Source: Bacteroidota bacterium (lineage in GTDB: Bacteria; Bacteroidota; Bacteroidia; NS11-12g; UBA955). Taken from it: a DNA stretch of 64,000 nt. The notes under the pieces were generated by a model, which searched no databases, had not been told where the DNA came from, and saw nothing but the letters and a program-made list of their open reading frames with translations. Made by a program: the position numbers and the translations under genes. The DNA lies in assembly GCA_027488835.1 (NCBI GenBank), contig JAIYAW010000009.1, positions 62,001 through 126,000 on the forward strand, in the 5' to 3' direction. Each line of letters starts with the position of its first letter. Positions within the stretch are counted from its first letter, which is position 1. Positions 36,105-55,090 of this stretch are shown here, piece by piece.

Positions 36105-37453
36105 TTGGAAAATAGTTTTTTCTTGATTTTTTTCTTAATCTTTTCAAGTTGTCGCGCAAACATATATTGAATGATGAAAAATACAATGATTAAAACTACA
36201 ACAAAAAGTAGGAAATAAAAACCGACAGGTGATAATCCAGATTTGATTTGCGTGTTCTTTATCATTCCAAAAACTGGTTCTACGGCTGAAATAGAAGACA
36301 AAACTGAAATAATTCCCAATAAAACAGCCTGTTTTTTTTCCTGCTCTTCTTGGATTTTATTCGCTAAATTATCCAAACGGTGTTCGAAAAAATCAATTTC
36401 ATCTGAAATATCAAATGATTTCTTAATTGAATCAAAAATGATGTTAGGTAAGAAATTAAATGAAATTACTTTTACATTATGATGGCCAATAAATTGTTGA
36501 AACTCATCTCGGGTTTTAATTGGATCTTCAATGAATTCTGCATTAAATCTAAATATGTTATATCGAATAAATAGATTATAAATATAAATTAAGAAATAAA
36601 CCCTGTTCCAAGTATTCCATTTTATAAATTCATATTTACCCTTATGATCCGAACTAAATAAACTATGTCCAACAACGGTAAAAGAGTCAACAAGTGCAAT
36701 ACCAGAATAATTGTTGAAAACGTTAATTTTGTTTTGCATAATTTCTTCGAAATACGATGATGATGGTGCATTATAATCATTCTTTTCAATTGAGCCAATC
36801 ATACTTGAAGTTCCTATTTCAAAAAGCAAATTATCTACTTTATCTTGATTCAATTCTTTTTCATTTAAATTTACAATTGCGTATGTTTTAAACTTTGAAC
36901 CACTGTATTCATCTGATTTAATTTTCTCACCTCTCAGAGAAATTCCGCTTAATAAGTTCATTGTAATCCAACTGTGTAATTCATTCTTTTCATCTACAAT
37001 CGTACTGAATGATTTGAGTTGATTGGTTAGATCTGAAATAAATCCAAGGGTGACATTCGCTAAGTCAAATGACAACGAAAAAATACCAGTGAAATTTGGG
37101 AAGAGAAATAGTTCTTGATTATTTGATTCAAAGTGTATTTTTTCACCGTTCCTTTTGGTTATGTTTAATAATAAGTTCTTATTTCTTGTGTATGATTTTA
37201 CGGATTTCTTGGTTTGGCCGAACATCATTTCGGCAAATTCTTTGTAATATGTATCTCTGTAAAACTTTACAGTTTCGTCAACTGAAATAAGATTCTCTTG
37301 CTTTTGAATAGGGGAATTATGATCATATTCAAATTCAGATACAGGGATTGGGTAATACCCATCTGATTCAAATTTTTTGATGTCAATGTTTCTATATGTG
37401 AAAACACCTACAATTTTAATGATTGATGATTCTATAACTGTCTCTATATGCAT
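36101..37453 (-). CDS. Membrane protein with two C-terminal helices (CorA-like topology)
   Basis: This 450-residue protein has a large soluble N-terminal part (residues 1-370), a coiled-coil stretch (FFEHRLDNLANKIQEEQEKKQ) and two membrane helices (about 377-396 and 410-432). A very basic tail follows (KIKKKIKKKL). The topology resembles CorA-like channels or RMD1-like proteins, but no GMN motif is present. It lies upstream of, and overlaps, the 35619 gene. Confidence 0.6.
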   Translation of the reverse strand: MHIETVIESSIIKIVGVFTYRNIDIKKFESDGYYPIPVSEFEYDHNSPIQKQENLISVDETVKFYRDTYYKEFAEMMFGQTKKSVKSYTRNKNLLLNITKRNGEKIHFESNNQELFLFPNFTGIFSLSFDLANVTLGFISDLTNQLKSFSTIVDEKNELHSWITMNLLSGISLRGEKIKSDEYSGSKFKTYAIVNLNEKELNQDKVDNLLFEIGTSSMIGSIEKNDYNAPSSSYFEEIMQNKINVFNNYSGIALVDSFTVVGHSLFSSDHKGKYEFIKWNTWNRVYFLIYIYNLFIRYNIFRFNAEFIEDPIKTRDEFQQFIGHHNVKVISFNFLPNIIFDSIKKSFDISDEIDFFEHRLDNLANKIQEEQEKKQAVLLGIISVLSSISAVEPVFGMIKNTQIKSGLSPVGFYFLLFVVVLIIVFFIIQYMFARQLEKIKKKIKKKLFSK

Positions 37454-38955: not shown

Positions 38956-39483
38956 ATGTCTGAAATTCAGGGTAAAATATTAATGAATGGGAAGATTATG
39001 GATTATTTAATCCATGGTCAAAAGTGTAAATTATCATTTGAATTTAATGATTCCAGATACCTTTTATTTTATAGTAGGATTCCATTCATGGGGAGTTACC
39101 ACAAAGCCCGTTTTTTTAAGCCTGGAAAAATTGGATTTTGGAATTTTTACAAATTCTTTAGTAATATCCAAATACAAAAGAATCCCTCAGAAATAGAATT
39201 TGTTGCTAACGCATATTATCCAGTTATTCATTTTTATATATTCAAACATTATTGGTCATTAAAACCGAAAAAAATGACAATAAATTTGAATATAAATTTC
39301 GTAAATGCGCAACCTTTGGATGTGCAAACAGAAAATAATTTAATGCAACTAAAAAACAATTCTGAATTAGAGATTCTTCATCAAACAATCAGAACTAAAA
39401 AATCAACATTGAAAATAAATATTGAAAATCCTTCAATTGTCAATCTTCCTATCAATCTAAATTATAAAAATTTCGAAATTTAA
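38956..39483 (+). CDS. Hypothetical beta-rich protein
   Basis: This 175-residue protein has no signal peptide and many aromatic and alternating residues in the first half (YLLFYSRIPFMGSYHKARFF), then an Asn/Lys-rich second half. It ends four bases before the DUF4407 gene start, suggesting co-transcription. No family is recognised. Confidence 0.55.
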   Translation: MSEIQGKILMNGKIMDYLIHGQKCKLSFEFNDSRYLLFYSRIPFMGSYHKARFFKPGKIGFWNFYKFFSNIQIQKNPSEIEFVANAYYPVIHFYIFKHYWSLKPKKMTINLNINFVNAQPLDVQTENNLMQLKNNSELEILHQTIRTKKSTLKINIENPSIVNLPINLNYKNFEI

Positions 39484-39487
39484 ACAT

Positions 39488-40780
39488 ATGAATTCAACAA
39501 CTGATTATTCTTTAAATCCACCGTCTTGGGTTACCCGTTTTTTATGGTGGTGCGCTGGTGCTGACAATTATTTTTTAAATCTTTCACCCAAACAAGACCG
39601 TGTAAAATATGCGGGTATTGGTGGAATTGTGCTTTGCACAGGAGTATTGGCTGCTTTTTCAGGTGGTTTTGCATTCCATACCATTTTTGGTCCAAAAGGT
39701 GATGCCATGGAAATTAGTGGAATGACAACCTTCATTGATATTGTTGGTAGTGCCATTTTTGGATTTTGTTGGGGATTAATCATTTTTAATTTAGATAGAT
39801 TTATCATTTCAAGCACGGGCAAAGGGGATGGAACAGACGTAATTACAGGTAAGGAAATGTTGCAAGCACTTCCGAGGATCATAATTGCTTTGATATTGGG
39901 TTTTGCTATTTCTGCTCCTTTGGAAATCAAAATTCTAGAAAGTGAAATCAATGCCGAACTTCAAAAATTTCAAGAAAGTTATGTTCAAGATTTAAATAAA
40001 GAAACCGATAAAGTTGCAAATCAACAAAAAGCGGTTTTAGAAAAAAGGAAAACAGAATACGAATTTAAATTGTCTGTATATCAAAAAGAACTAAAAGTAT
40101 ATGACGATGCAATAGATAATTTAGTTTCTATTCAGCAAAATGAAATGCAAGATAAACGCGCATACGGCTTTGGACCAGTTGCAAAGAAAATGCAATCAGA
40201 TATTGATAACAAGAAAGTGGAAAAAGATAAGTTTGTAAAAGACAAGGAAAAAGAAGTCAAAGCCTTAAATGATCAATTAACTAAAGTAAATTTTGAAATA
40301 GATAATTATGAAAGCGATCTTAGAAAAGCATATGCAAAAAACAAGGAAGTTGCGGGTGGTTACAGTGGTTTGCTTAAAAGAATCCAGATTTCACATGAAA
40401 TTGGCGGATGGATTCCTTGGATTATTTTATTGGTGTTCTTATCAATAGAAACGGGACCTATCTTTTTCAAAATGATGATGAACAAAGGTGTGTATGATTT
40501 CTTGGTGGAAAACCATAACAAAAGAAGGGAAGTTGAAAATGGTATTTGGAAAGAGGATTTTGCTTTTGAAGGAAAAGATGGTATCATTCACATGGAAAAA
40601 TGGCATTTCATGGAAATGGATAATGCTAAAGTTGAAAAAATCAAGAAATTAGACGCGCAAAAGAATATAAGTGAAAAGGCCATTGAAGAATGGGAAAAGA
40701 AAAAATTGAATGACTTAGCGAAAAATCCTCAAGATTTCTACACAGAGGGAAATAGAAGCACAATCGACAATAATGCTTAA
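39488..40780 (+). CDS. DUF4407-family membrane protein
   Basis: This 430-residue protein has an N-terminal LWWCAGADNYFL and paired helices (residues about 36-58 and 78-102) with GLIIFNLDRFII. A third helix (about 135-152, IIIALILGFAISAPLEIKI) leads to a long Lys/Glu-rich coiled coil (about 155-290), then a final helix (WIPWIILLVFLSIETGPIFF). This order is characteristic of DUF4407. Function is unknown in the family; the coiled coil probably projects from the membrane. It starts a cluster of envelope genes. Confidence 0.9.
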   Translation: MNSTTDYSLNPPSWVTRFLWWCAGADNYFLNLSPKQDRVKYAGIGGIVLCTGVLAAFSGGFAFHTIFGPKGDAMEISGMTTFIDIVGSAIFGFCWGLIIFNLDRFIISSTGKGDGTDVITGKEMLQALPRIIIALILGFAISAPLEIKILESEINAELQKFQESYVQDLNKETDKVANQQKAVLEKRKTEYEFKLSVYQKELKVYDDAIDNLVSIQQNEMQDKRAYGFGPVAKKMQSDIDNKKVEKDKFVKDKEKEVKALNDQLTKVNFEIDNYESDLRKAYAKNKEVAGGYSGLLKRIQISHEIGGWIPWIILLVFLSIETGPIFFKMMMNKGVYDFLVENHNKRREVENGIWKEDFAFEGKDGIIHMEKWHFMEMDNAKVEKIKKLDAQKNISEKAIEEWEKKKLNDLAKNPQDFYTEGNRSTIDNNA

Positions 40781-40782
40781 AC

Positions 40783-41850
40783 GTGCAACGTTTTACTTTA
40801 ACAATATTAGGTCTTGAAAGAGACATTTGGGAAGTTATAGAAGGTAAAGAAAAAGCGAAATACAATCTAGTCGCTATTTTCTTTTTAATTTCTATGCTGA
40901 TTGCCTTGTTGGGTATATATTTTGCTATGTTGATTATAACTGGTAATATTCCGCAATCCGTAATCGCAACTTTATTTTTATTTTTTGTTTATTTCAATAT
41001 TTTTAGATTTTCTATAATTACGATTCGTAGATCATTTTTCAATACGAGTAAAGAAGATTCTGAAATTCTAGATGAACAAAAAAAAGCTAATCCGATTTCG
41101 AAACAAAATTTAATTTCGAAAATTAGTGGTTTAAAACCAAGTTTTGGGACTAGTGTTAGAACATTTGTATATCTAATTTTAATTCAAATTTTGGTGTTCG
41201 GTTTGGTTGTTTGCTTCAATCTGAAATCAATAAAAAATGAAACTCAAATAATTCGAGAAAACATATTGAAAGATTATCTGAAATCCGTTACCGATTTTCA
41301 ATTGAATTCGATCAATAAACTGAAATATTCATTAGAAACAATAAACAACAAAATCAATTCTTTAAATTCAATGAATGGAGAAGAATCTATTTATTTTGAT
41401 AATTTATTGGTTAAAAAGAAATTAATTGAAAAACAAATTATTGAATTAACCCTATTCAATGAAAATGAATTTAATAAGAAAAATTCTTATTTCAAAGATA
41501 AAATTCAGCATCAATATTTTCCTTTGAAAATTATACTCAATTCCAAATATCGACAGAGTTTTCTTTTTTTTGAGTTGTTATTGATTATTGTGTTCTTTCT
41601 TCCAACAAGAACAATGCTCTCATTAAAGCAGAATAATAGCTATCAATATGCCAAATTAAGCAATGACAGATTCAGAGATGTTGTTTTGTTTGAACATCAG
41701 AAGTTAGAATTGGTTTTTAATGAAAAAATTAAAAAATACAACAAAAATGCTGAACTATTTTCGATTTGGGAAGATGTTCCATTTAACACAACTTATAAAA
41801 AGAAATCTGTAAAAAGGACACCTGTTTCACTTGTTCAACTCATAAATTAA
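40783..41850 (+). CDS. DUF4407-like multi-TM protein
   Basis: This 355-residue protein starts at a GTG two bases after the upstream stop. Helices lie at about 26-46, 57-77, 128-145 and 240-260, with a coiled-coil stretch (about 150-230) between the third and fourth. This is the same layout as the DUF4407 neighbour, so I regard it as a divergent partner. There is a basic C-terminal tail (YKKKSVKRTPVS). Confidence 0.65.
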   Translation: MQRFTLTILGLERDIWEVIEGKEKAKYNLVAIFFLISMLIALLGIYFAMLIITGNIPQSVIATLFLFFVYFNIFRFSIITIRRSFFNTSKEDSEILDEQKKANPISKQNLISKISGLKPSFGTSVRTFVYLILIQILVFGLVVCFNLKSIKNETQIIRENILKDYLKSVTDFQLNSINKLKYSLETINNKINSLNSMNGEESIYFDNLLVKKKLIEKQIIELTLFNENEFNKKNSYFKDKIQHQYFPLKIILNSKYRQSFLFFELLLIIVFFLPTRTMLSLKQNNSYQYAKLSNDRFRDVVLFEHQKLELVFNEKIKKYNKNAELFSIWEDVPFNTTYKKKSVKRTPVSLVQLIN

Positions 41851-41857
41851 ATAATCT

Positions 41858-43294
41858 GTGGCTTTAAAATACAAATACTATACTGGATTAATTGAATGTC
41901 AATTTGAACTCGTTGATTCAAAGCCATTAGGTAATTCAGGTAACAAACAAAATAAATTTAATCTTCATCCTAATTTTCGATTTTTTAATTTTAAGGAAAT
42001 TGATAAGGATCAATACGAGTCGAATACAAAAATTAAAAATGCTCCATTTGTTCATCATAAAAAAGAAGAATCAATTCATTTTATAGAAGAAAAACATGAG
42101 GATCAATTTAAATTTATCTCTGATGAACTTTTTCTAATTTTAGGAAATAATGAAGAAGAATTAACAAGCAAACAAAAAGAAGCAGGGCAAGAAGTTCACA
42201 TTCCAAAAACTCACAGCAAAGAAAGAATTTTAGTAAGCCAAAATGAAATTTTAAATTACCCAAGTTCCTTGTCTTTGAATAGTTTCTTAGTGAATAACGA
42301 CAAACATAAATTTGGTAGATTTCATGGCTTTGCTTTTGTTAGGATATTTGAGCATGTTCCAGATATCATAGAAAATACAATAAGTAGCGATTATCATAAA
42401 TGTAAATTCAAAGACAATATTGGTCTACAATGCGATAATAACATTCCATTGTCAGAAGAATTGTGCATCCTTCATAAACCAAAATTAATTACAGGTAATG
42501 AATTCATCGATCCCGTTCCAAAATCAGGAGGTTGCTTTGATAACAGTACTTTATTGTCGGATAAATATCTTTCTCCAATTGGATTAAACGCGCAGGGTGT
42601 AAAAGGTTGTTTTAATGGAAGTAATAACAATCCTAGTGGTTGTTTTAAACCGCAAATTTCTAATTCAAGAAGATGGGGCTGTGGATTATTTAGTTTAATC
42701 CCACTATTGATTTTACTTTGGTTCTTGTGGTGTTTATTATTTGGAAAGTGTGGTGAATGTAATAAACAAAATACTTCAAATTCAAACTTAAAAGCACCAG
42801 ATACAGTGTATGTTGAAGTTTTTAGAGAACTTAAGGATACACTAAAAATTATCCAGATGGACACTGTTAACTTTGTTGATTCAACAGTGAATAATAGATT
42901 TGATATGGTAAGTTTACCAAATGTTCAATTCTTTACCGATAGTGATGTATTGTTGCCATCATCAGCAAAAGAACTTCAGCAATTGGCGGAGTATTTAAAT
43001 AATAATGATAGTTTGACTGCGGTTGTAGTTGGACACACAGATAATACAGGTGATCCAAAACAAAATTTGGAGTTGTCGCAAAAGCGAGCCGAAAGCGTTC
43101 AGAAATTTTTAGAGAGTCTCGGCGTGAAAAAGGGTAGAATTCAGGCCAAAGGTTTGGGTGATAAATTGCCAAAAGCGTCTAACAATACAAATGAAGGGCG
43201 TTTAATGAATCGCAGAGTAGAAGTTCAGTTATTGAAAAACGAATTTGTTGTTACTAAGAGATCTGAGGTTCCAAAAGAAAAAGGAAATAAATAA
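41858..43294 (+). CDS. Membrane protein with C-terminal OmpA-like domain and GCF motifs
   Basis: This 478-residue protein has a GTG start. Its N-terminal cytosolic part (1-215) includes a Cys-containing patch (CKFKDNIGLQCDNNIP). A linker with GGCF, KGCF and SGCF motifs (about 225-265) is followed by one membrane helix (about 273-295). Residues about 350-462 form an OmpA/MotB peptidoglycan-binding domain (FFTDSDVLLPSSAKEL, VVGHTDNTGDPKQNLELS, NRRVEVQLL) with the Asp and Arg for diaminopimelate binding. The C-terminal domain would reach the cell wall. It shares its overall plan with the next gene, which it overlaps by one base. Confidence 0.85.
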   Translation: MALKYKYYTGLIECQFELVDSKPLGNSGNKQNKFNLHPNFRFFNFKEIDKDQYESNTKIKNAPFVHHKKEESIHFIEEKHEDQFKFISDELFLILGNNEEELTSKQKEAGQEVHIPKTHSKERILVSQNEILNYPSSLSLNSFLVNNDKHKFGRFHGFAFVRIFEHVPDIIENTISSDYHKCKFKDNIGLQCDNNIPLSEELCILHKPKLITGNEFIDPVPKSGGCFDNSTLLSDKYLSPIGLNAQGVKGCFNGSNNNPSGCFKPQISNSRRWGCGLFSLIPLLILLWFLWCLLFGKCGECNKQNTSNSNLKAPDTVYVEVFRELKDTLKIIQMDTVNFVDSTVNNRFDMVSLPNVQFFTDSDVLLPSSAKELQQLAEYLNNNDSLTAVVVGHTDNTGDPKQNLELSQKRAESVQKFLESLGVKKGRIQAKGLGDKLPKASNNTNEGRLMNRRVEVQLLKNEFVVTKRSEVPKEKGNK

Positions 43295-44934
43295 TGGAAA
43301 TACAATATTTTAAAGCTGATTTTACTGGGATTTTTAAAAATAAAAAGTCCAATTCTGTAGGTCATTTTATTTTCTCTGAAATACATTGGAACTATGTAAA
43401 ATTAGATAATTTAAAGAAAATAGATATTGATGTTTTCGATAAATTAAAATCTGGATACTATTCCTATACTGAATTATTAAAGCAAAAAAGAAAATTTAGT
43501 AAATCAACGGAAATTTTCATACCTCACGGTGAAACGGAATATCTAACAGGCGATTTGAAACATTTCTTAGTTCGTGATTTTCAATTAAATGCCCAGAAAT
43601 TGCCGCTTTTGACAGATTTGGGTAATGGAATGACACAAGTTTTTGGTAGTGCATATTTTGGGATTCCTAAAATTATTCAACCTCAAGTAATTCCGACTCC
43701 ATCGATTTCAAAAGGCAATGGAATGAATATTTTTGGTAATTTAATTCCAACCAATAACTCAGGCTATTCAAATTCAACAACACCGAATCAATTGCCTCAG
43801 AATGCCTCTGGATGTTTTAATAGAAACATTAACAATGTGAATCAACCATTAAATACAACATTGCCAAATTCGGGTGGTGGTTGTTTTCGATCATCCATCT
43901 TTGCAAATAATAATTCGGGTTGTATTGGCAATATATTCAGATTGATTGGATTGGTTTATTTGATACCATCATTGATGTATTTGTGGTATGCGAATCCTTT
44001 ATTATTTTGGGTTGTCGCTATATTAAGTTCAATTTGGTTAGTATCACGTTTTTTCTCATTTAAGAAATATTTTAGTTGGATTGGTTGGTTGCTTTTGGGC
44101 TTTGTTGCTTTTTATTGGTATAAAAATTACCATTTTATTAAAAATGATATAAAGCATACTGAAAATAAAAAAGGCAATATTAAAATTTATCCTCCCAAAG
44201 AAGATGGGAAATCATTTAAAAATAATGAGCGTGATTATCTAACAGCTAAAGAAATAAATTGGTTCGATTTTTTAAATAATAAATTAAATATTTTTTATCA
44301 AACATCGTCATTAGATTTTTTAGATGCACAAAAAAATCACGTAAAATTGGCCAATGTACAGGGAAGTTCAAATTCTGAATTATTTGCTAAAGTCTATAAT
44401 TCAATGTTAAATCATGATTTACCCTATATTGATAGTGTGGTAATTAAGTTGAAAGTTTTAGCAAAACAAAAGAATTTAAATAAATTGAAATTAGCTGAAG
44501 CAGTTACCACAATGATTCAAGAAATTCCTTATTGTTTGGTTCATGATCAAAGTTGTAAAGAACTTTTGAATGCCACAGACAATAGTTTTATACGAGAATA
44601 TCATGAAGAAGGGAAGCCCTGCCTGCCAAATATCATAGCCGGTGTGCAATCGCCATATGAATTTTTGCATAATTTAAAAGGAGATTGTGATACCAGGTCG
44701 TTATTGGCACACGCAATTTTAACAAAATTAAGAATACCAAGTTCTGTTTGGATAAGTGAGGCATATGGTCATTCTATATTGGGTGTTGGTTTACCTGTAG
44801 GTTCTGGTAATTTTAAAGAAATTAATGGGGTCAATCATTATGCCGTTGAACTAACGGCGAAAGGATTTCGCATAGGAATGATTTCGCCGGAACACAGAAA
44901 TATGGGAAATTGGGAAATAGCAACTTTTAACTAA
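43294..44934 (+). CDS. Membrane protein with C-terminal transglutaminase-like domain and GCF motifs
   Basis: This 546-residue protein has an N-terminal part of about 140 residues with the same layout as in the 41858 gene. A Ser/Asn/Pro linker carries SGCF, GGCF and SGCI (about 170-210), then three hydrophobic helices (about 212-285). A C-terminal transglutaminase/cysteine-peptidase-like domain follows: GDCDTRSLLAHAIL (C465), YGHSILGVG (H493) and NHYAVELTAKG. The catalytic residues appear intact. It is likely anchored with the enzymatic domain outside the cytoplasm. Confidence 0.75.
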   Translation: MEIQYFKADFTGIFKNKKSNSVGHFIFSEIHWNYVKLDNLKKIDIDVFDKLKSGYYSYTELLKQKRKFSKSTEIFIPHGETEYLTGDLKHFLVRDFQLNAQKLPLLTDLGNGMTQVFGSAYFGIPKIIQPQVIPTPSISKGNGMNIFGNLIPTNNSGYSNSTTPNQLPQNASGCFNRNINNVNQPLNTTLPNSGGGCFRSSIFANNNSGCIGNIFRLIGLVYLIPSLMYLWYANPLLFWVVAILSSIWLVSRFFSFKKYFSWIGWLLLGFVAFYWYKNYHFIKNDIKHTENKKGNIKIYPPKEDGKSFKNNERDYLTAKEINWFDFLNNKLNIFYQTSSLDFLDAQKNHVKLANVQGSSNSELFAKVYNSMLNHDLPYIDSVVIKLKVLAKQKNLNKLKLAEAVTTMIQEIPYCLVHDQSCKELLNATDNSFIREYHEEGKPCLPNIIAGVQSPYEFLHNLKGDCDTRSLLAHAILTKLRIPSSVWISEAYGHSILGVGLPVGSGNFKEINGVNHYAVELTAKGFRIGMISPEHRNMGNWEIATFN

Positions 44935-44939
44935 AAAAT

Positions 44940-45443
44940 ATGAAAATAATAATTATCGTTCAAACCATTCTAGCATATTGCATTGGAATTGGTTCTTTGT
45001 TGGTAGTGAATACCATTATGAACTCTATTTTAAGACGCCGTTTTCAAATAGAAGAAAAGAATTTAGCTTATGGTATTTTTCAGGTAGGAATTATCTTATC
45101 TACTGCAATTATTCTATCTTCTGTTATCGATCCAGGAGTTAATGCAATTAGATTAATGAATCAGGATGGCTTTACCATGAGTAGTATCGTAGCTTCCTCT
45201 GGTTTTGTAATTCTATTTGTTATAATTGGCATTTTCGCTACGTTTGTAACAATTGCTGGAAGTGTATTTACTCTTTTTCAAATCACTCACGTAAATGAAT
45301 GGGAGGAAATTAAAAACAATAACACAACAATAGCAATTATTTCTGCTGCAGTTATTTTGGGATTATCTTTAATCATGGATGATTATGTGGGTCATTTATG
45401 TGAAGTGATTGTTCCATATCCAGAGGTTTTGAATATTAGATAG
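44940..45443 (+). CDS. DUF350-like membrane protein
   Basis: This 167-residue protein has four hydrophobic helices. The N-K-N-L-A-Y-G-I-F pattern after the first pair and E-I-K-N-N-N-T-T-I-A-I before the last helix are the duplicated N-x-A-x-A elements of DUF350. It is a member of the envelope cluster. Confidence 0.72.
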   Translation: MKIIIIVQTILAYCIGIGSLLVVNTIMNSILRRRFQIEEKNLAYGIFQVGIILSTAIILSSVIDPGVNAIRLMNQDGFTMSSIVASSGFVILFVIIGIFATFVTIAGSVFTLFQITHVNEWEEIKNNNTTIAIISAAVILGLSLIMDDYVGHLCEVIVPYPEVLNIR

Positions 45444-45459
45444 TGTTAATTGGTTTCTT

Positions 45460-46257
45460 GTGAGATATGTTTTAATCATCTTTGTATTTTGTTGTATTCA
45501 CAATGCAAATGCACAGATATTAAATATTGACAGGGAAATCGAAGATTCAATGAAAAAACCTTGGTATTTATTGATATCAGGTTCATTTTCAAAAGATAAA
45601 CAAAAGGTAGATATCAATGATTTATCTACTTATTCTGAGTATGTTTATAAATTAAAATCAAATAACGCTTTTACATTTATTGGCCAAGTAGATGCAACTG
45701 TTTCGGGCAAACAAGTCTTACAAAATGAAGGGTTTTTTCAGGTTAAACACCGAGATTTAGACAAGAGGTTGAATAGCTTTGAATACTATTTGCAATATCA
45801 ATGGAATGGCGCTTGGGGAATGGTATCCCGAAAATTGGTTGGTGTAAATTTTAGAAGAAGAATTTTAGAAAAGAATGGATTAGATTTATACAGTGGAATA
45901 GGTTTATTTTATCAATTTGAAAATTGGAATTTCAATGGTGTTACTGATTCAAATTTAATTCCCATTGGGTATGATTTGGTTCAGAAAAATGACATAAGAA
46001 CAAATTTTTATATCAAAGGTGGGTTGAAATTATTTAAAAATTGCGATTTTGTAACTCAAACTTATTTGCAAAGTAATTTGGTCGATTTTTTAAGAAATAA
46101 TCAGTTGAGAGTGTATATTTCTTCAATGTTGAAATATAATATCAATACAAATTTTCAGTTGGGTTTCAATTTAGATTTAACGTATAACAGAAATCCTCCT
46201 GTCCCTATTAACGCTACATACTACGGTTATTTAATCAATCTTGGATTTAAATTTTAG
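45460..46257 (+). CDS. DUF481-like outer-membrane beta-barrel protein
   Basis: This 265-residue protein starts at a GTG. The signal peptide is residues 1-18 (ending NANAQ). The mature part consists of amphipathic beta strands with turn-rich repeats and a terminal aromatic residue (YLINLGFKF), as in outer-membrane barrels of the DUF481 type. It probably spans the outer membrane next to the OmpA-domain partner. Confidence 0.75.
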   Translation: MRYVLIIFVFCCIHNANAQILNIDREIEDSMKKPWYLLISGSFSKDKQKVDINDLSTYSEYVYKLKSNNAFTFIGQVDATVSGKQVLQNEGFFQVKHRDLDKRLNSFEYYLQYQWNGAWGMVSRKLVGVNFRRRILEKNGLDLYSGIGLFYQFENWNFNGVTDSNLIPIGYDLVQKNDIRTNFYIKGGLKLFKNCDFVTQTYLQSNLVDFLRNNQLRVYISSMLKYNINTNFQLGFNLDLTYNRNPPVPINATYYGYLINLGFKF

Positions 46258-46260
46258 AAT

Positions 46261-46953
46261 ATGATAGTAATGAAAAATATTGCCTACCAGTTTTTTGTGA
46301 GTGTTTTAATAATACTTGCATTGATTATTTTCTTGTTCGTAAAAAGAAAATTTAATTCATTTTTCTTTCGAGGACGCACTATTGAAAATAACAAAAGTAA
46401 AATTTACAATACTCCATTGTATTTTGAATTATTTTATATTTCTCTGTTTTTAGTATTTACTGGGTTTACAATATGGTCTTTGTTAGGTCAAAAATGGTAC
46501 TACCTTTTAATAAATATTGTCTATGTGATTCCAATGTTACAGAGTTTAATTAGAATGATTAAGTCTACCGATGATCAAATTGAAATTTCAGCAGAGTTTG
46601 TATCATTTAGAACGAGACAAGATCATATTGAAAAGTTAATAAAGCCCACTTCATTCGAATTTACGCAAATCCAAAGTGATCGCTTAACAATACAATCAGA
46701 TCCCAAAGATGATGTTATCATTGTTAAAAATGCACAAGGAGAATCTTTGATTATAAATTTATATAAATTGAATTTAGCACATTATCAAATTCAAATGAAA
46801 CGAGATATAAAAAAGTATTTTGGCTCGGATTATATAATTCAAAAAGAATCCTTTTTAGCCGAGATTTTGAAGAGTCCTAAAAAGACAATAAAATTGATAT
46901 TGACTGTTTTAGTATTTATATTGGTTGTATCAATTTTAACAAATATTTCTTAA
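46261..46953 (+). CDS. Membrane protein with PH-like soluble domain
   Basis: This 230-residue protein (Met1 or Met4 start) has three N-terminal helices (about 8-27, 55-72, 78-95), a soluble domain of about 95 residues (DDQIEISAEFVSFRTRQD onward) and a final C-terminal helix (about 208-228). The architecture is similar to the 26878 and 55261 proteins. It closes the envelope cluster. Confidence 0.6.
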   Translation: MIVMKNIAYQFFVSVLIILALIIFLFVKRKFNSFFFRGRTIENNKSKIYNTPLYFELFYISLFLVFTGFTIWSLLGQKWYYLLINIVYVIPMLQSLIRMIKSTDDQIEISAEFVSFRTRQDHIEKLIKPTSFEFTQIQSDRLTIQSDPKDDVIIVKNAQGESLIINLYKLNLAHYQIQMKRDIKKYFGSDYIIQKESFLAEILKSPKKTIKLILTVLVFILVVSILTNIS

Positions 46954-47029: not shown

Positions 47030-49501
47030 ATGATAAATAATTATATGATACATAACAACCACCTAGAAGAACTTCCAGTTCAGGTTGCGAGACCATTATA
47101 CTTAATTTCTCAAACAAATAATTATTTTAAAAAATTACATTTAATTTCAGATGTTCTTTTGGGATGTTTCAGATTGTATGGTCACGCTCTAATAACTATT
47201 GCGGAAAGTGGGAAATCGATAAATGATTCATTGGAACAATCAATTGCTACACTATTGTCTAAGGATAGTCATGGATTATGGAGTTCCACTATTGTAAAGT
47301 TAATTCAAGAATTTGATAAGCAAAATGCTTCACATCTTTCTTTGGAGTTAGCGGACTTATTTGGTGTTTCATTAAAAAGCATCAAACAATTATCCATAAA
47401 TAAAATGACTGTTCGAAATACTGTAATAGATGGGAAAGGGAAGAAACAACTTATTGAGGTAACAAATACACCTGTTGAGTTGCTAATAAATTTCCGAAAT
47501 AAATACGTAGGACATGGAACGGTTTATTCAGAAAGTGAAAGTAAGCAGATATATGAAATTTATGAACCTATATTATTTTCTTTTATTTTGTCATTGGTAA
47601 AATGTAATTCTTTTCAATTTGTTGATGGCGATACGGGGACAAGTATTCATGGATATGAAAAGTCTTGCGGCGGTAATATTACTTTGTGCTACAGAGAAAG
47701 TAAATATAATTTTAATTCTGTTGAACAATTATTGATTTCTGATTTAAATAATGATGTACCGGATGATTCATTGTTATTAAAATCATTTCATTTAGACGAA
47801 TATGATTCTAAAATAATTGAATTTTATCCATATTTTTTGGCGCATCCTTATAAACGAGCTTTAGAGGAAGAGGACAGTTTTAAACGTTTGCATTTATTAA
47901 AAGAAGTTTTTTTAAATTACTTAAAATATTTGGGTTTATTAACGGCATCTGAATATTTTAATAGCAATTTGAAAATTGGAGATATTAATCGAGCATTTAA
48001 GAGTTTTCTGTATCGCCCGCAATTTGGACATTGGAATGCATTTATGCGAAGTAGTATTCTGGCACTAAATGAAAACAAACATAACTGGTTTGTCAAAGAA
48101 CTATCTGAGTATTATGATGAAGTTGAGACTAAACCTTATGCTAGTCATGGCGAAACATCTATCGGTAAACTAATTTATTTTAGAAATCATTATCTCGGTC
48201 ATGGTAAAGTTCCTTCTGAACAGGAATGTCGTGAATTATGGAATTTGAATTTTACATTATTAAAAGACTTATTGATAAAATTGGAATTCTGTAAGAATTA
48301 TACAATAGTAAGTAGTGATAAAACCATATCTTGGAGATTGATGGGCGATGAAATTACTCAAGTTAATTTGCGAAAAAAATTAAAATCTAATGTAGCTATA
48401 CTAAATTCAGAAAATCAAGAATTGAGTATCGTTCCGTTCTTTATATTGCCAGGAGAGTATTTCATTAAAGAAGTTTCTGATAGAGCTAAATTAATGGTTT
48501 ATGAACAGAATACTGGAAGTCGAATCGTCTTTTTTAGTCCTGAAAGTGTTCACGGAGAAACGAATAATGAAAAAGTTCTTGAACAATTAAATCTGATGAT
48601 TCGCGAAAAAGAAAGACAAGAGCCTATTTCCATTAAGGATTTGAGCGAGACTTCTTGGAAGGCAATTATCAAAGAAAACAACGATAATACTTTGCAAACC
48701 TTATTAAGTGAAAAGAAAGTTATTAAGGGGATTTATCAAGAGAGACAAGATGCAGAGGTTGCCTTAAGATCATGGATTGGTGCCAGAGCCGGATTGTTTT
48801 TTTTAGCAGCTGAAGCTGGAAGTGGAAAAACAAATTTATTAGTTGAAATGAATCGTCAATATACTGAAAGAGGAATTGATACTATTTTACTGAGAGGAAA
48901 TCGCTTTAGAAGCCCTGATATATGGGAAGAATTATGTTATAGGTTAAATTTAACCCACAATAGTTCCTTTGAAGACGCTGATTTTTTGCAATACGAACAA
49001 GAAAATCCTTTGATGATTTTAATAGATGGGGCCAATGAGAATTCTAATGCAGTTGCTTTATTCAACTCTATCATTCAGTTTTTAGAAAAACACAAAGGTG
49101 GGCATATAAAAATTGTATTAAGTTGGAGAGTGAATACCAAAAGTGAGTTGCCTAAAACAGAAGACAATCATGAATCAATTATTTACAGCGATTCAAAAGA
49201 CGGTGAAAGAGAGGATAACATAATTGCCCGCTCATGTTATTGGCTTAAGCCATTAAATAAAGTTGAAGTTGAGGGTGCTTGGAATAAATATGTGAGCGAT
49301 AAACAAGATAAGGTTCGTCGCAAACCCAATTTCTCTTACGAAGAACTTACCTACCACGATCGATCATTAAGTGATCAATTAGATAATCCACTTTTACTTC
49401 GATTATTCTTAGAATTAAACAATGGCAAGGGCTTGCCAAAGAGTAGGGGTGGATTTATTAGTATTTGGGAGTTATATCATGAAAAATTGATTTCTCAATA
49501 A
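47030..49501 (+). CDS. Tandem-HEPN STAND NTPase, N-terminal half of a split system
   Basis: This 823-residue protein (Met1 or Met6 start) has two similar helical domains, each ending in a HEPN-like motif: FRNKYVGHG (R156-N-x4-H162) and FRNHYLGHG (R385-N-x4-H391). A linker with ELSIVPFFILPGEY precedes a P-loop NTPase with intact Walker A EAGSGKT (K600) and Walker B LMILIDGANE (D666). It ends after NPLLLRLFLELNNGKG, the helical region where a STAND protein would normally continue into its winged helix and repeats. Those parts appear in the next three ORFs. The next ORF starts five bases later. Confidence 0.85.
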   Translation: MINNYMIHNNHLEELPVQVARPLYLISQTNNYFKKLHLISDVLLGCFRLYGHALITIAESGKSINDSLEQSIATLLSKDSHGLWSSTIVKLIQEFDKQNASHLSLELADLFGVSLKSIKQLSINKMTVRNTVIDGKGKKQLIEVTNTPVELLINFRNKYVGHGTVYSESESKQIYEIYEPILFSFILSLVKCNSFQFVDGDTGTSIHGYEKSCGGNITLCYRESKYNFNSVEQLLISDLNNDVPDDSLLLKSFHLDEYDSKIIEFYPYFLAHPYKRALEEEDSFKRLHLLKEVFLNYLKYLGLLTASEYFNSNLKIGDINRAFKSFLYRPQFGHWNAFMRSSILALNENKHNWFVKELSEYYDEVETKPYASHGETSIGKLIYFRNHYLGHGKVPSEQECRELWNLNFTLLKDLLIKLEFCKNYTIVSSDKTISWRLMGDEITQVNLRKKLKSNVAILNSENQELSIVPFFILPGEYFIKEVSDRAKLMVYEQNTGSRIVFFSPESVHGETNNEKVLEQLNLMIREKERQEPISIKDLSETSWKAIIKENNDNTLQTLLSEKKVIKGIYQERQDAEVALRSWIGARAGLFFLAAEAGSGKTNLLVEMNRQYTERGIDTILLRGNRFRSPDIWEELCYRLNLTHNSSFEDADFLQYEQENPLMILIDGANENSNAVALFNSIIQFLEKHKGGHIKIVLSWRVNTKSELPKTEDNHESIIYSDSKDGEREDNIIARSCYWLKPLNKVEVEGAWNKYVSDKQDKVRRKPNFSYEELTYHDRSLSDQLDNPLLLRLFLELNNGKGLPKSRGGFISIWELYHEKLISQ

Positions 49502-49506
49502 TCTTT

Positions 49507-50940
49507 ATGACATCTAACCACCTCCTTCTTTATCGTCTCGCAGAACTAATGCTCGAAAATGAGCAACATAATCTCCCTGTAGATGCGTTGTTTGAAGATG
49601 AACAAATTGGTGATTTTGTAAAAAGCATCCAAATTGATTCCCCTTATCAGCAAATGCTATTTGAAGGGGTTTTAACAGAAACAGTAAGAGATGAAAAGTT
49701 GTATGTTAGCTTTACAGTTGAAGGATATTTTCATTATGTGCTAGGGGAGGTGATTTACAATCGAACTGAAGGAAGAAATCCGCAGGAATTGAAGGATATT
49801 GTTGATTTAAATAAACTCAATGGTGTCAAAGAAGGGATTGAACAATGTTTGATAAGGGATGTGAATTTAAAACAATTTGAAAGATTGTTTTGCCTTATTG
49901 ATTTTGGTGGAGGGATAACTAAATATTGCTCTGTACCATTTGCTCATGGATTGCTTCATGCAGATAATATTCAAAATGAATTCAATAAAACCAATCATTC
50001 GTTAAATATTGAATATCTGATAGAATCTTTGTTAGAAAATCCAACGGAAAATGATTTTAATGTTCTTTTGGATTCAATTATATATCTTGAGCAATCACAA
50101 AAAAATAAATGTTTATTATATTTATTTAATATCTTATGTAATCTAAATAAATATGGCAATATTGATTTTATTAAAATTGCCATTAAGGGAATTCCATATC
50201 TTGAGCAAGAAAATAAATTAGAAATTTTAAATAACATTGAATTTGAAATTGATAAATTTACGAATAACGAAGAATATCCTGAAATCATTTTTGAGATTGG
50301 CACAAAATGGTTACTATCCGCAAAATATGATAAGGCAATTGCTTTAATCGAAAAATCAAAATCAATATTTGAATCAAGAGCAGGGAATTTTGATAATAAA
50401 ATTGAAAAAATATATAGCAATTTGGGGGCAGCATATTGGTATCTTGGGAATATTGATATGACACAATATTACTTTCAATTATCATATGAAAAATGTATTC
50501 AAATCTATGGAATTCAGCATAAAAACACTTCTGGATCTCTCCAAAATTTGGCTTTAGTGAATGTGCTTAAAGAGCAATACGAAGAATCTATTTTGATTTT
50601 TAAAAAATCACTTGATTTGTCATTAAAGGAGGAAGGATTTAATCATCCAAATACGGCAAGAATATATAGTAATTTAGGTTCCGCATATTTAAAAGTTGGT
50701 AATATAAACTTAGCGTATGATTTGTTTCAAAAGGCATTGTCTATTGATTTAAAAGTATTACACCAATTTCATCCAAACTTAGCATTGGATTTTGATGATA
50801 TAGGTGATGTATTGTTTGAAAAAGGAGATAAAATTGAAGCTTTAAATCATTATAAAAAATCAAAATCAATATTTATTCAAAATCATGGCAATAATTATCC
50901 TCATGTAAAGTTGCTTGAAGAGAAAATCAATAAGTTATAA
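49507..50940 (+). CDS. Cassette 1: conserved adaptor N-terminus plus TPR array
   Basis: This 477-residue protein has residues 1-90 (MTSNHLLLYRLAELML ... YFHYVLGEVI) corresponding to the winged-helix part that follows a STAND ATPase. It is almost identical in DNA to the start of the next ORF (about a dozen differences in 245 bases). Residues about 90-135 also resemble cassette 3. From about 295 there are classical TPRs of the kinesin-light-chain type (ARIYSNLGSAYLKVGNINLA, NTSGSLQNLALVNVLKEQYE). No catalytic domain is visible. It is probably a sensor or partner subunit of the upstream NTPase. Confidence 0.78.
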   Translation: MTSNHLLLYRLAELMLENEQHNLPVDALFEDEQIGDFVKSIQIDSPYQQMLFEGVLTETVRDEKLYVSFTVEGYFHYVLGEVIYNRTEGRNPQELKDIVDLNKLNGVKEGIEQCLIRDVNLKQFERLFCLIDFGGGITKYCSVPFAHGLLHADNIQNEFNKTNHSLNIEYLIESLLENPTENDFNVLLDSIIYLEQSQKNKCLLYLFNILCNLNKYGNIDFIKIAIKGIPYLEQENKLEILNNIEFEIDKFTNNEEYPEIIFEIGTKWLLSAKYDKAIALIEKSKSIFESRAGNFDNKIEKIYSNLGAAYWYLGNIDMTQYYFQLSYEKCIQIYGIQHKNTSGSLQNLALVNVLKEQYEESILIFKKSLDLSLKEEGFNHPNTARIYSNLGSAYLKVGNINLAYDLFQKALSIDLKVLHQFHPNLALDFDDIGDVLFEKGDKIEALNHYKKSKSIFIQNHGNNYPHVKLLEEKINKL

Positions 50941-50959
50941 GTTGAATTTATTATTTTAA

Positions 50960-52471
50960 ATGACCTCTAATCACCTCCTTCTTTATCGTCTCACACAACT
51001 CATGCTCGAATATGAGCAACACAATCTCCCTGTAGATGCGTTGTTTGAAGATGAACAAATTGGTGATTTTGTAAAAAGCATCCAAATTGACTCCCCTTAT
51101 CAGCAAATGTTATTTGAAGGGGTTTTAACAGAAACGGTAAGAGATGAAAAGTTGTATGTTAGCTTTACCGTTGAAGGATATTTTCATTATGTGCTGGGGG
51201 AGGTGATTAATGATTTTTATTATCAAAAATCATTAAATAAAATTGTAATATTAGCAAAACAAAATAAACTCGTTGGAATTGAAAGGGCGATAGAATTATG
51301 TTTAATTAGAAATATTTACTCAGGCATATTAAAAAACTGCATAACCCTTGCACATGCAGGCCTAACAGTGGATATATTAACTAGTCCAATATCCGATCAT
51401 TTGGTATTGAATTTTAAAGAATTAGATTCTAAAGAATTAGTTGAATTTGTAAAGGCAATCGTAAAATCCAAACCAGAGCATATAAAACTATTAAAATTGG
51501 TGATAATTCGTTTGAGATCACTTGGGCAAAATGAAATTATTAAATATATCGTTCAGTGTGTATACAACGAATTAAAATCCAATTTTAATATTAGCGAAAA
51601 AAACAAATTTCAAATAATAGAAATACTTTTATTTTTTTCAAGTTATTTAAATAATAATGAATCCGATGGACTTTGTCAAATAGCGATAGAATATACTTCA
51701 AAAAAATCAATCAAACTTTCATCAGAATTTTATTCATCGTTAGGTCTTAGTTTAAAATTATTAAAGAGAGTATCAGAGTCAATTGCATTTTTTGAAATGG
51801 CACTAGATGGAGAAATAACTGATACTGATAAAGAAATTCAAATTTTAGGGAGAATAGCTAATTGTTTTGTTGAAATATCTTTGTTAAACAATGATGTAAA
51901 TGCAGCAAATAAAGCGATAACTAAGTTTAAAATTATTGATAAAAAAATTGCCCAAAATCCAATGTTTAATCCAATTTTAAAGGCAACTCATTTGAATAAT
52001 TATGCAAAGTCTATCTTTATCTTTTTTATGAAAAAATGGGAAATAAATTTCACAATAGAAGAACTAAAAAAACTTTTTGACGAAAGCTTTAATTTGACAG
52101 TTCAAAATTTCGGTTATTATTCTGATTTAACTGCAAAAATTCTTAATAATATTTCAATGTTCTTTGCTATGATTGGGAATCTAAATAAATCATTAGAATA
52201 TTGTAAAAAAGGTTTTAAAATAGTTGAAAAAGTTTTTCCATATTATTCAAATGATACTGCAATTTTTGCATTTAATGTAGGAAATCGGTTTGAACAAATG
52301 GACAATGTAATAGAGGCAAATAAATACTACAAAATTGCCTTTGATATTAACCAAAAGGAAGGTCGAATTCAATACAATAAACAAATGTGTATTGCCTACA
52401 TTCGAGTTTTAAAAAAGTTATCCTTGAATGATTTAGCAAACGAAATCGAAAATCAATATTCCATACCATGA
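50960..52471 (+). CDS. Cassette 2: conserved adaptor N-terminus plus divergent helical repeats
   Basis: This 503-residue protein shares its first 85 residues closely with cassette 1; identity then stops abruptly at GEVI. The rest is helical, with weak TPR-like pairs (LNNYAKSIFIFFMKKWEI, NTAIFAFNVGNRFEQMDNVIEANKYYKIAF). Its start is 19 bases after the cassette 1 stop and its own stop overlaps the cassette 3 start by four bases (ATGA). Confidence 0.75.
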   Translation: MTSNHLLLYRLTQLMLEYEQHNLPVDALFEDEQIGDFVKSIQIDSPYQQMLFEGVLTETVRDEKLYVSFTVEGYFHYVLGEVINDFYYQKSLNKIVILAKQNKLVGIERAIELCLIRNIYSGILKNCITLAHAGLTVDILTSPISDHLVLNFKELDSKELVEFVKAIVKSKPEHIKLLKLVIIRLRSLGQNEIIKYIVQCVYNELKSNFNISEKNKFQIIEILLFFSSYLNNNESDGLCQIAIEYTSKKSIKLSSEFYSSLGLSLKLLKRVSESIAFFEMALDGEITDTDKEIQILGRIANCFVEISLLNNDVNAANKAITKFKIIDKKIAQNPMFNPILKATHLNNYAKSIFIFFMKKWEINFTIEELKKLFDESFNLTVQNFGYYSDLTAKILNNISMFFAMIGNLNKSLEYCKKGFKIVEKVFPYYSNDTAIFAFNVGNRFEQMDNVIEANKYYKIAFDINQKEGRIQYNKQMCIAYIRVLKKLSLNDLANEIENQYSIP

Positions 52472-55014
52472 CTTCTAATAAATTACTGCTTAATCGCATT
52501 GCTGAGCGTATGCTTGACAAACAGCAACACAATATTGCTGTTGATGAATTATTCGACGATTCTGTAATTTCAGATTTCGTAAAAAGTATACAAATTGATT
52601 CACCTTACCAACAAATGTTATTGGAAGGGGTTTTAACTGAATCAATCCGAGATGAAAAGCTATTCGTAAGTTTTACGGTTGAAGGTTATTTCCATTTTAT
52701 TTTGGGGGATGTCATCTTTGAACAATCCATTGATAAAGATTCTGCATTTTTAATATCTCTAATAGAAAAAAACAATTTAAATGGTATTAAAGAGGGAGTA
52801 GAACAGTGTCTTATCAAAGAAGTTAACTTGGCTAAATTGGATAGACTAGTTGAAATGATAGACGCTGGTGGTGATGCAGAAATAGTGACTCGCTTCCCAC
52901 TTGTTCATGCATTCATGAAAAACAAAGTGGAAGATGTATTTCAAACCTTAATGGTGAATCCCTCCACAAGTGACTGGAACGTATTAAAGCATGTAAGAGA
53001 AATTCTATTGGGAAATCAAAAGCAATATGTAGTTGATCAACTTGATAGTATTATTAAGGAGTCAAACCAGCTTAAGCAAACTATTAATGATTTACTGAAG
53101 AGTAAAAATGAAATAGAATTCTCATCGGCATTAACACTCATTTCTTTTTATACAGATTTAAATGCACTTGATCAGGCAAAAGAATTCTATACAATTTTTA
53201 TTAAAGAATCTGAAATAAGAAATAATAATAATTCATTAGTAAGAGCATTAGAACTTTATGGGGAAAGTGAATATAAACGTTCCGGACAAGACGGATATAA
53301 GACGGCCATGGATGTTCTTATAAAAGCAGCATCAATGCGAGAGTTAGAAACTACGCCCCAAAAAGAAAAACTAAAAAACACTTATCGGCTCCTCGGTTTC
53401 GCATATTTATCACTCGGTTTGCAAGTAATCAAGTCTACTGAATATTTTGAAAAAGCGAAGACAATTATGCTTGAGGAATCTCCGGAAAGTGCTGAGTTAG
53501 CTGAAATAAATTTATATATTGGTTTGGTAAATTTTTGGCGTGGATTAAGAGGTGTAGGTCGCTGGGGTCACGCTGACCCGAGCCTAATTGAGGGATTAGA
53601 TGAAGATCTTTTTGAGTATGCCGACAGTCAATTTCAACGGGCCTTTTACTATAATCTCACTAACTTAGGTAAAACACACCCTGAAACTTTAAAAGCCATC
53701 CACTATCTACAAGAGAATCGATATGCCATGGGAAATTACGAACAGGCAATTCCATGGCTCAAAAAATATGTGGATGCACTTCCATTCAAAACTTATGATC
53801 ATAGAGATAATTTCTACCTTTATTGCTTTATCGTAGCCTTGGAAGAAAATGCCAAACGAATATCAACTCAAGAAAAAGAAAGAGCTTTAGCATTAATTCA
53901 GGAAGCCATATTGTATTGTGAAAACTATGATGAAGGAAATCATATTACTCAACGACTATTAGAGGTTAAAAAACAAATTGAAGAAGAGCAGTTAAAAGAA
54001 CTTCAATATTCTAATATTGATGAGTTAGTATCCTTGGAAACTGAAATTAATTTAAAATGTATTTGGAGTAACTGGGAGTTTTCAAAAGATTTAATTGGAT
54101 TTCAGACCAATAATTACATGCTTGATGAAAATGGAATTTGGTTTTTTAATTTAGAAAAAAAGCAGCTTTTTTATTGGAATAAAATCAATAATTCAATTAT
54201 TGAAAAAAATCCGGGTAATTGGCCTGAAGGGTGTGGAAGAATTGTCTATGATTCAAATAATCAAGCATTTTATGCTTGGTCTTCCATCCGTTCTACCGTT
54301 TACGAGTTGAATGCTTCGAATAGTAAATGGTCGAGATTGTCTTTTGGTGTTCATGATGTTCATGCCTGTGGTGCTTCCTATGCGTTTGATCCTGTAAATA
54401 AAAGACTGTTCGAGTTCGGAGGATATGGATACTTCACATACAAGAATTGGTTGTGGGTATATGATATTGCAGAACGAAAATGGATTCAACTCAAAGAAAA
54501 TAAACCAGGAATTTCCCCTTATCCTAGGAACGGACACTTGTTGCCTATTCAAAGTAGTAGAAAAGCGCTGCTTATATCCGGAATAGGAAGTGACACGGGT
54601 ATTCAACGCGAATACAAGCCCAGATTGGGCTTGGGTAATGCAACTGATGTCGGCTATTTCACCTGGTTGCGAGATGCGCATGAATTGGATTTAGAAACAA
54701 TGGAATGGACAGAAGTATTATCTACTAATCATGAGTCTATAAGACATGAAGGTGCATTTGGGTTTATAGAAAAATTAAATTTAATTATCAGTTGGGCAGG
54801 AATTATCCCATCACCAACATTTGGAGTTGAAGCAGAAAAACAATCTTTATTATCTTCTTGGCAATTATTAAATAATGAAGGGTTTAAGAACTTGAATTTT
54901 GAAGGCGATATCCCCCCTTTGACAGAGGGCTCATTTGTATCAATCTCAAACTCGAATTATTTACTATATATCCACAGTGAAGGAATTTGGAAACTAACAA
55001 TTAATGACCTCTAA
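52468..55014 (+). CDS. Cassette 3: adaptor N-terminus, TPR region and Kelch-like propeller
   Basis: This 848-residue protein has residues 1-90 homologous to cassettes 1 and 2 but more diverged (FVKSIQIDSPYQQML is kept). Similarity to cassette 1 continues to about residue 145 (NGIKEGVEQCLIKEVNLAKL). A TPR-type middle (about 220-500) is followed by about 300 residues of Kelch-like blades (LFEFGGYGYFTYKNWLWVYD, with alternating W/G turns). Kelch propellers bind proteins or ligands, fitting a recognition role. The gene ends within the start of a truncated fourth copy. Confidence 0.78.
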   Translation: MTSNKLLLNRIAERMLDKQQHNIAVDELFDDSVISDFVKSIQIDSPYQQMLLEGVLTESIRDEKLFVSFTVEGYFHFILGDVIFEQSIDKDSAFLISLIEKNNLNGIKEGVEQCLIKEVNLAKLDRLVEMIDAGGDAEIVTRFPLVHAFMKNKVEDVFQTLMVNPSTSDWNVLKHVREILLGNQKQYVVDQLDSIIKESNQLKQTINDLLKSKNEIEFSSALTLISFYTDLNALDQAKEFYTIFIKESEIRNNNNSLVRALELYGESEYKRSGQDGYKTAMDVLIKAASMRELETTPQKEKLKNTYRLLGFAYLSLGLQVIKSTEYFEKAKTIMLEESPESAELAEINLYIGLVNFWRGLRGVGRWGHADPSLIEGLDEDLFEYADSQFQRAFYYNLTNLGKTHPETLKAIHYLQENRYAMGNYEQAIPWLKKYVDALPFKTYDHRDNFYLYCFIVALEENAKRISTQEKERALALIQEAILYCENYDEGNHITQRLLEVKKQIEEEQLKELQYSNIDELVSLETEINLKCIWSNWEFSKDLIGFQTNNYMLDENGIWFFNLEKKQLFYWNKINNSIIEKNPGNWPEGCGRIVYDSNNQAFYAWSSIRSTVYELNASNSKWSRLSFGVHDVHACGASYAFDPVNKRLFEFGGYGYFTYKNWLWVYDIAERKWIQLKENKPGISPYPRNGHLLPIQSSRKALLISGIGSDTGIQREYKPRLGLGNATDVGYFTWLRDAHELDLETMEWTEVLSTNHESIRHEGAFGFIEKLNLIISWAGIIPSPTFGVEAEKQSLLSSWQLLNNEGFKNLNFEGDIPPLTEGSFVSISNSNYLLYIHSEGIWKLTINDL

Positions 55015-55090
55015 CCACATCCTGTTATATCGTCTCGCAGAACTCATGCTCGAACAGGAAAAGCATGTTCTTTCTGTGGATTTCATCTGA
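55004..55090 (+). pseudogene. Truncated fourth cassette
   Basis: Twenty-eight codons from the ATG at 55004 repeat the adaptor start (MTSNHILLYRLAELMLEQ) and then hit a stop at 55088-55090. The ATG lies inside the last codons of cassette 3, the same close-packed arrangement as the other cassettes. The bases after it, to 55260, show no further homology, so the remaining part has been deleted. Confidence 0.85.

Follow-up and report, generated by a model that had tools for sequence, protein, structure and literature searches.

The locus described here lies on the plus strand of the window (the whole stretch of DNA analysed, 64,000 nucleotides) and consists of a gene for a large core protein, followed by three complete cassette genes and a truncated fourth, with coordinates as the earlier note had given them. 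Its features are as follows.

47030..49501, plus strand: core protein, 823 aa; two HEPN-like domains, then a STAND-type P-loop NTPase
About residues 31-240 and 251-440 of the core: the HEPN-like domains
About residues 560-720 of the core: the STAND-type NTPase; the core stops before the winged helix
47495..47515, plus strand: HEPN motif 1, R156-N-K-Y-V-G-H162; R, N, V, G and H invariant in nine loci
48182..48202, plus strand: HEPN motif 2, R385-N-H-Y-L-G-H391
48812..48832, plus strand: Walker A, EAGSGKT (residues 595-601)
49010..49039, plus strand: Walker B, LMILIDGANE (residues 661-670)
49190..49498, plus strand: last 103 residues of the core, the predicted docking face for cassettes; mean pairwise identity 0.918
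49507..50940, plus strand: cassette 1, 477 aa; winged-helix adaptor plus helical/TPR sensor, C-terminal type A
49507..49755, plus strand: adaptor 1, 249 nt, 83 aa, winged helix
50960..52471, plus strand: cassette 2, 503 aa; adaptor plus helical/weak-TPR sensor of a type found in the window only
50960..51208, plus strand: adaptor 2, 95% identical to adaptor 1
52468..55014, plus strand: cassette 3, 848 aa; adaptor, TPR-like region and Kelch propeller; type K, found in four loci
52468..52716, plus strand: adaptor 3, 73% identical to adaptor 1
54292..54732, plus strand: Kelch region of cassette 3, residues 609-755, PF24681
55004..55081, plus strand: remnant adaptor 4 (truncated), the ATGACCTCTAA of which supplies the stop codon of cassette 3

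A whole-genome search found the adaptor family only in these three full copies and one remnant, and the Pfam matches at the locus are limited to AAA, TPR and Kelch.

The assignment of tandem HEPN domains to the core, made in the earlier note, stands in part. Core residues 12-205 match residues of about 263-434 as an internal repeat (E 1e-12; hhalign profile-profile 98%), and each copy carries an RNxxxGH motif, both motifs being invariant in 9/9 loci. HEPN RNases are recognised by an Rx4-6H motif with a polar residue after the arginine (PMC3710099), a rule satisfied by RNKYVGH and RNHYLGH, the R, N and H of which are invariant; however, none of the HEPN Pfam models matches the core. Residues 1-230 were modelled as helical with a pLDDT of about 80, and fold and Pfam searches gave nothing significant. 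The AF2 model of the whole core was poor (pLDDT 58.6) and Foldseek returned no significant match with it, so the HEPN and STAND folds are assigned from motifs and profile matches; comparison of the core profile with the sequences of solved structures likewise gave nothing meaningful. The P-loop assignment is supported by the invariance of GSGKT (597-601) and ILID (663-666) in nine loci. The NTPase region matches the Avs2 HMM (2e-11) and AAA_22 (0.004). The Avs2 match reaches 38.2 bits against a cutoff of 1000 and covers about 200 of the 1317 model positions, in the NTPase region only; no full-length match of the core to an Avs family model was found. NPHP3_N matches seven of the nine core members (best value 0.0023), with both it and Avs2 remaining below their curated cutoffs.

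Mean pairwise identity rises along the core, from 0.65 in the first HEPN-like domain and 0.77 in the second to 0.87 in the NTPase and 0.92 in the last 103 residues, which are its most conserved part, while that of the adaptor, taken over all cassettes, is 0.83; the two surfaces that are predicted to meet are thus under strong constraint. One core homologue (L072 417-3041) has an extra N-terminal zinc-ribbon-like segment (CSSSEC..CPEC) ahead of the tandem HEPN region, and fused relatives with a similar segment occur.

The claim that the NTPase stops where its winged helix should begin is borne out by single-chain relatives, which continue at that point. When the last 83 residues of the window core are joined to the first 140 of cassette 1, a continuous alignment to two fused homologues is obtained (E 2e-31 and 3e-24), with a gap of 3-4 residues at the join. 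The winged helix and repeat sensor are therefore carried on chains separate from the NTPase, yet are colinear with the fused homologues, in accord with a relationship between cassettes and NTPase. Single-chain relatives include L021 (1172 aa), L076 (1398 aa) and, in two other families of the class, G600 and G693. The AF2 model of cassette 1 (pLDDT 90.2) shows a winged helix and then a TPR-like superhelix, with the adaptor as its least confident part (blocks of 60-90), and the adaptor elements (H3-18, H25-30, H32-39, H46-52, E56-61, E64-69, H72-87) follow the winged-helix order. Because a structure search with this model was dominated by TPR proteins, the winged helix receiving no match of its own, the winged-helix call is based on the order of secondary structure elements and on the fused homologues.

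In all nine loci in which a core followed by a cassette is visible, including the window, the core ends in LYHEKLI(S/A)Q and a stop codon, and the adaptor ATG follows after 5, 6 or 8 nt. The frame offset from core to adaptor is +2 in seven of these loci and 0 in two; a programmed frameshift or readthrough joining core to cassette 1 is ruled out by the spacing and the differing offsets. No cassette is fused to the core at any of the nine junctions. The position of the split between NTPase and winged helix is a real and conserved feature of these sequences. Fission is probably the derived state, since the fused form, as sampled, spans more of the class than the split form.

The plan is not a local accident, being present in 12 MAG loci, i.e. 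the window and 11 further loci from GTDB genomes, the latter all Bacteroidota MAGs by title and mostly from lakes or ponds. Core and adaptor were found together in every locus whose contig reaches far enough; several contigs break off within an array. Where both ends of the array are present, there are three cassettes in the window, L009, L012 and L013, four in L014, and three in L016 + L074. Every intact cassette has its own ATG, and start and stop overlap at 16 of the 18 cassette junctions: in 14 the previous stop lies inside the start of the next adaptor (ATGACCTCTAA type, 11-nt overlap), two overlap by 4 nt, and the remaining two have a gap of 10-20 nt. First-position adaptors mostly start MTDN, MTGN or MTEI, and those at later positions MTSN. 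Remnant adaptors after the last cassette, as in the window (about 78 nt), L018 (62 nt), L074 and L009 (degenerate), are signs of cassette loss; L015 carries a truncated cassette.

The occurrence of the system is patchy. It was found in none of 13 same-genus genomes; the split core is present in 4 of 108 genomes of the order and, among 395 genomes across the phylum, in the window genome only. One more genome, G064, which probably carries the L018 array, comes from another family of the order. Phage-borne cassettes were considered and rejected, as none was found in viral contigs, and a tandem-repeat or assembly artefact was rejected on the 12 loci that show the plan. A clean empty site in the sister genome G013 was also rejected, with unrelated genes lying on both sides of the shared upstream segment (91% DNA identity; window 45425-46434). 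This segment aligns with L036 1644-2651, from a same-genus genome, at 91% identity and stops abruptly at both ends; on its upstream side a copy of window 24635-24712 adjoins it in the sister sequence. Strong rearrangement marks this island.

The earlier note had seen about 245 bases shared by cassettes 1 and 2 before similarity was lost; the DNA is 95% identical over 249 nt and then falls to background level within ~10 nt. Its statement that the cassettes diverge completely after an N-terminus of about 90 residues is accurate for the DNA and beyond about residue 135 of the proteins, but the near-identical 83-residue block is followed by weaker homology to about residue 135 (62-68% over 135 aa). 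The three C-termini had been described as TPR, helical repeats, and TPR plus Kelch. The Kelch type is indeed a clear exception; otherwise this description needs refining, most C-termini of the family being of the TPR type and distantly related or unrelated to one another.

The 28 cassettes represent 14 C-terminal types, and the same types occur at different array positions. The Kelch type, for instance, takes the third place in the window and the first in L010, and in L011 it comes after a cassette of type A. Type A itself heads the arrays of the window and L016, and type B that of L013, whereas in L014 type B stands second. Type C occupies the third position in both L013 and L014 but the first in L012, and type D the third in L009 and the first in L014. 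Cassette content and order, then, vary between loci with a constant adaptor. In their DNA, adaptors of one locus resemble each other more closely than adaptors of different loci do (the observed mean was reached in 0/5000 shuffles), and no such excess is seen between C-terminal orthologues (1150/5000 shuffles). Shared codon usage raises within-locus similarity, yet cannot account for identities of 92-96%. A maximum-likelihood adaptor tree, in which few branches are well supported and most are weak, requires 14 changes of locus label, against a mean of 20.0 when labels are shuffled (0/1000 as low), and 12 changes of type label, against a shuffled mean of 11.5 (891/1000). An exception to this homogenisation is the adaptor of window cassette 3, which groups with another Kelch adaptor (93/96).

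Exchange of the sensor half, which the earlier note had proposed together with duplication or conversion of the adaptor, is directly shown by one pair of genomes, those of L013 and L014, and also by several loci in which the adaptors are homogenised and the C-termini unrelated. The sensor halves of L013 cassette 1 and L014 cassette 2 have a third-position identity of 79%, against 53% for their adaptors and 41.5% for the NTPases of the two loci; similarity rises from about nt 300-345 and ends just past the next AATGACCTCTAAC. The difference between sensor halves and NTPases implies that sensor halves move independently. In this one pair, a sensor half has been transferred between distant genomes, to different array positions and with each locus keeping its own adaptor: sensors move INDEPENDENTLY. 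The point at which homogenised tracts stop varies, lying at nt ~249 for the window and L012 and at nt ~400 for L009, a pattern more in keeping with general homologous recombination than with a site-specific recombinase. No recombinase, such as an integron would need beside a fixed recombination point, was found among the neighbours scanned, a part of all neighbours, nor was a reverse transcriptase, the mark of a DGR, found among those scanned. The sensor halves are under purifying selection: in orthologues dN is well below dS wherever dS is computable (0.11 vs 0.33 for L013/L014, the others being near saturation). In the TPR region of one L012 cassette (11834-12306), a 126-bp unit is repeated 3.8 times at 88% match, which points to repeats having turned over recently within a sensor.

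In STAND proteins an N-terminal effector is followed by an NTPase switch and a C-terminal sensor, and the sensor half restrains the switch and detects phage proteins (PMC10907252, PMC12931631). We consider it likely that the locus encodes a STAND (NLR-like) receptor whose gene has been split, a HEPN-RNase/STAND core being served by several exchangeable sensor subunits, much as the modular core with interchangeable recognition subunits that had been suggested. At the level of sequence, the case comprises the split, the colinearity, the array plan, the shared adaptors with different C-termini, the locus-wise homogenisation and one inter-genome transfer. From here we infer docking, a mechanism of activation, RNase activity, simultaneous use of the cassettes and an antiviral function. 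The core, with its two HEPN domains and NTPase, would be the shared effector and switch, and each cassette a sensor subunit with a winged-helix adaptor and its own TPR or Kelch recognition part. The adaptor would dock on the conserved C-terminal end of the NTPase, such that any cassette could cap the core and keep it autoinhibited; binding of a ligand, most likely an invader protein, by any single sensor would release the core, which may then oligomerise and switch on HEPN RNase activity. With the 249-nt adaptor repeats as the substrate of homologous recombination and gene conversion, the repertoire would be renewed, sensor halves being gained, lost, reordered and exchanged between genomes and the docking part staying matched to the resident core.

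On balance we favour a combinatorial immune receptor, in which an NLR-type core forms alternative complexes with several co-expressed sensors via a shared winged helix, with a recombining repertoire. As to a direct tie to defence, neither a phage ligand nor a known defence neighbour was found at the locus. The same machine might act in kin recognition or allorecognition, or as an internal stress sensor; surveys of the Aravind type tie such NTPases to several kinds of conflict (PMC7159879). We regard such a role as rather unlikely, however, in that HEPN and STAND domains, diversifying TPR sensors and patchy occurrence are together typical of invader defence, and the bacterial STAND proteins that have been studied experimentally sense phage proteins (PMC10907252, PMC12931631).

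It is unlikely that cassette 1 alone is used, with the downstream cassettes forming a silent or poorly expressed reservoir recombined into the first position in the manner of CDI/Rhs orphans. C-terminal modules that each stand behind a shared repeat do resemble CDI orphan modules (PMC3150448), and first-position adaptors are somewhat distinct from the later ones. CDI orphans, though, are generally without start signals (PMC3150448), whereas every intact cassette is full length and begins at an ATG of its own, in most cases overlapping the stop before it by 11 or 4 nt, as in translational coupling, and purifying selection acts on the sensor halves. The separate start codons, the overlaps with preceding stops and this selection favour the production of all cassettes. 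It is very improbable that the cassettes are independent TPR/Kelch scaffolds, sharing an N-terminal domain for another reason and not docking on the NTPase: docking is itself inferred, but in the fused relatives it is precisely the adaptor that continues the NTPase, and core and adaptor co-occur wherever the contig is long enough. Finally, the use of MAG sequences, the contigs ending within arrays and the truncated L015 cassette might suggest a decaying or misassembled gene, with a pseudogenising stop as the split and assembly artefacts as the repeats, yet this is refuted by conservation and carries negligible weight, since the split and the start codon are the same in nine independent assemblies, in which the residues on either side hardly vary.

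The component families of the proposed combinatorial receptor are already known; the arrangement itself would be a fissioned NLR-like core with an array of interchangeable sensors plugged in by a winged helix. The earlier note knew of no described system of this plan, and no split STAND with a sensor array was found described in the open-licence literature. Fused HEPN-STAND-TPR proteins (PMC3710099; L021, L076, G600, G693), present in several families of the class, have homologous HEPN, NTPase, winged-helix and TPR parts in the same order, but as one chain with one sensor, a single HEPN and no array. The antiviral Avs/bNACHT STAND proteins have in common the logic of nuclease-type effector, STAND NTPase and repeat sensor, and are single polypeptides, unlike the split core and cassettes. 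CDI/Rhs orphans (PMC3150448) are like the cassettes in that variable C-terminal modules each follow a core-derived repeat, with homology from repeat to repeat and exchange between genomes. By contrast, the CDI/Rhs core has one tip fused and its modules are toxins with immunity genes, the orphans being generally without start signals; each cassette is a complete translatable subunit with a sensor, and no fused tip occurs in nine loci.

Thoeris (PMC7272460) likewise combines one ThsA effector with several diverse ThsB sensors, but uses a diffusible nucleotide signal and TIR/SIR2 enzymes, without a shared docking adaptor that exchanges C-termini; its components (a TIR sensor, SIR2/SLOG or other ThsA effector) are absent among the Pfam matches of the locus. 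DGR-diversified STAND and ternary systems (PMC10907252) also have a diversified sensor part in NTPase conflict systems, although there a reverse transcriptase point-diversifies a fused C-type lectin, with no cassette exchange. In EAD systems (PMC8195603) a small common domain couples separately encoded parts; these adaptors recruit effectors to N-termini on the NTPase side, whereas in the cassettes the adaptor is part of the sensor side, being the winged helix of the receptor itself.

Another split HEPN-STAND, unrelated to the first, is encoded in the window at 29044-35374, in three genes, P0007, P0005 and P0006. P0007 has a HEPN-like LRNSVMH; P0005 has the HEPN motif FRNKFVH and an NPHP3_N NTPase (8.7e-11), and ends after the NTPase; P0006 is a separate 1098-aa sensor with a conserved N-terminus (TDPVYLR..LPIGLIGIYED) and weak TPR matches. 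Partners of the P0005 and P0006 types are adjacent in G019, which has a second, detached P0006-like sensor about 6-8 kb off, having the first 300 or so residues in common with P0006 and not the rest; in G064 the order is changed, the sensor gene coming first. A lone P0006-like gene (L014 17748-20396) and a 31-aa P0006-type fragment (L017 3845-3937) lie directly downstream of cassette arrays. Together these homologues indicate that this different split HEPN-STAND also has detachable sensors, and the two downstream of arrays suggest an insertion hotspot common to both split systems or an exchange of modules between them.

Other neighbours also recur. A minus-strand two-gene pair (window 35619-36104, 161 aa, and 36101-37453, 450 aa), the larger protein of which has a C-terminal membrane-effector-like similarity to CorA/PycTM models, is found near arrays in L009, L012 and L013 and beside a fused STAND gene in L027. 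A membrane gene cluster at 38956-45443 (DUF4407, OmpA/ZorB-like, DUF350 and others) is possibly a separate defence-like system; its DUF350 gene recurs in the vicinity of the arrays of L013, L016 and L018, and L013 and L018 also have a homologue of the gene at 43294-44934. At the start of the window (40-10617), a 3525-aa ORF with about 21 diverged repeats, spaced at about 260-270 nt, resembles an ORF next to the L019 array, with 26% identity over 1972 aa.

In NLR-like receptors the sensor is thought to be part of the same chain, such that a new specificity needs a new receptor. If the combinatorial reading is true, a core that takes many sensors by a constant winged-helix plug, from a recombining array, would be an economical way of widening and renewing bacterial innate recognition. 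The interface for autoinhibition and activation would in that case be intermolecular, so that the coupling of sensing to activation in STAND proteins could be assayed by mixing proteins, and the arrays would offer a collection of naturally occurring sensor domains that can be swapped on a single effector. Given the second split HEPN-STAND in the window, the use of detachable sensors would be a strategy that recurs.
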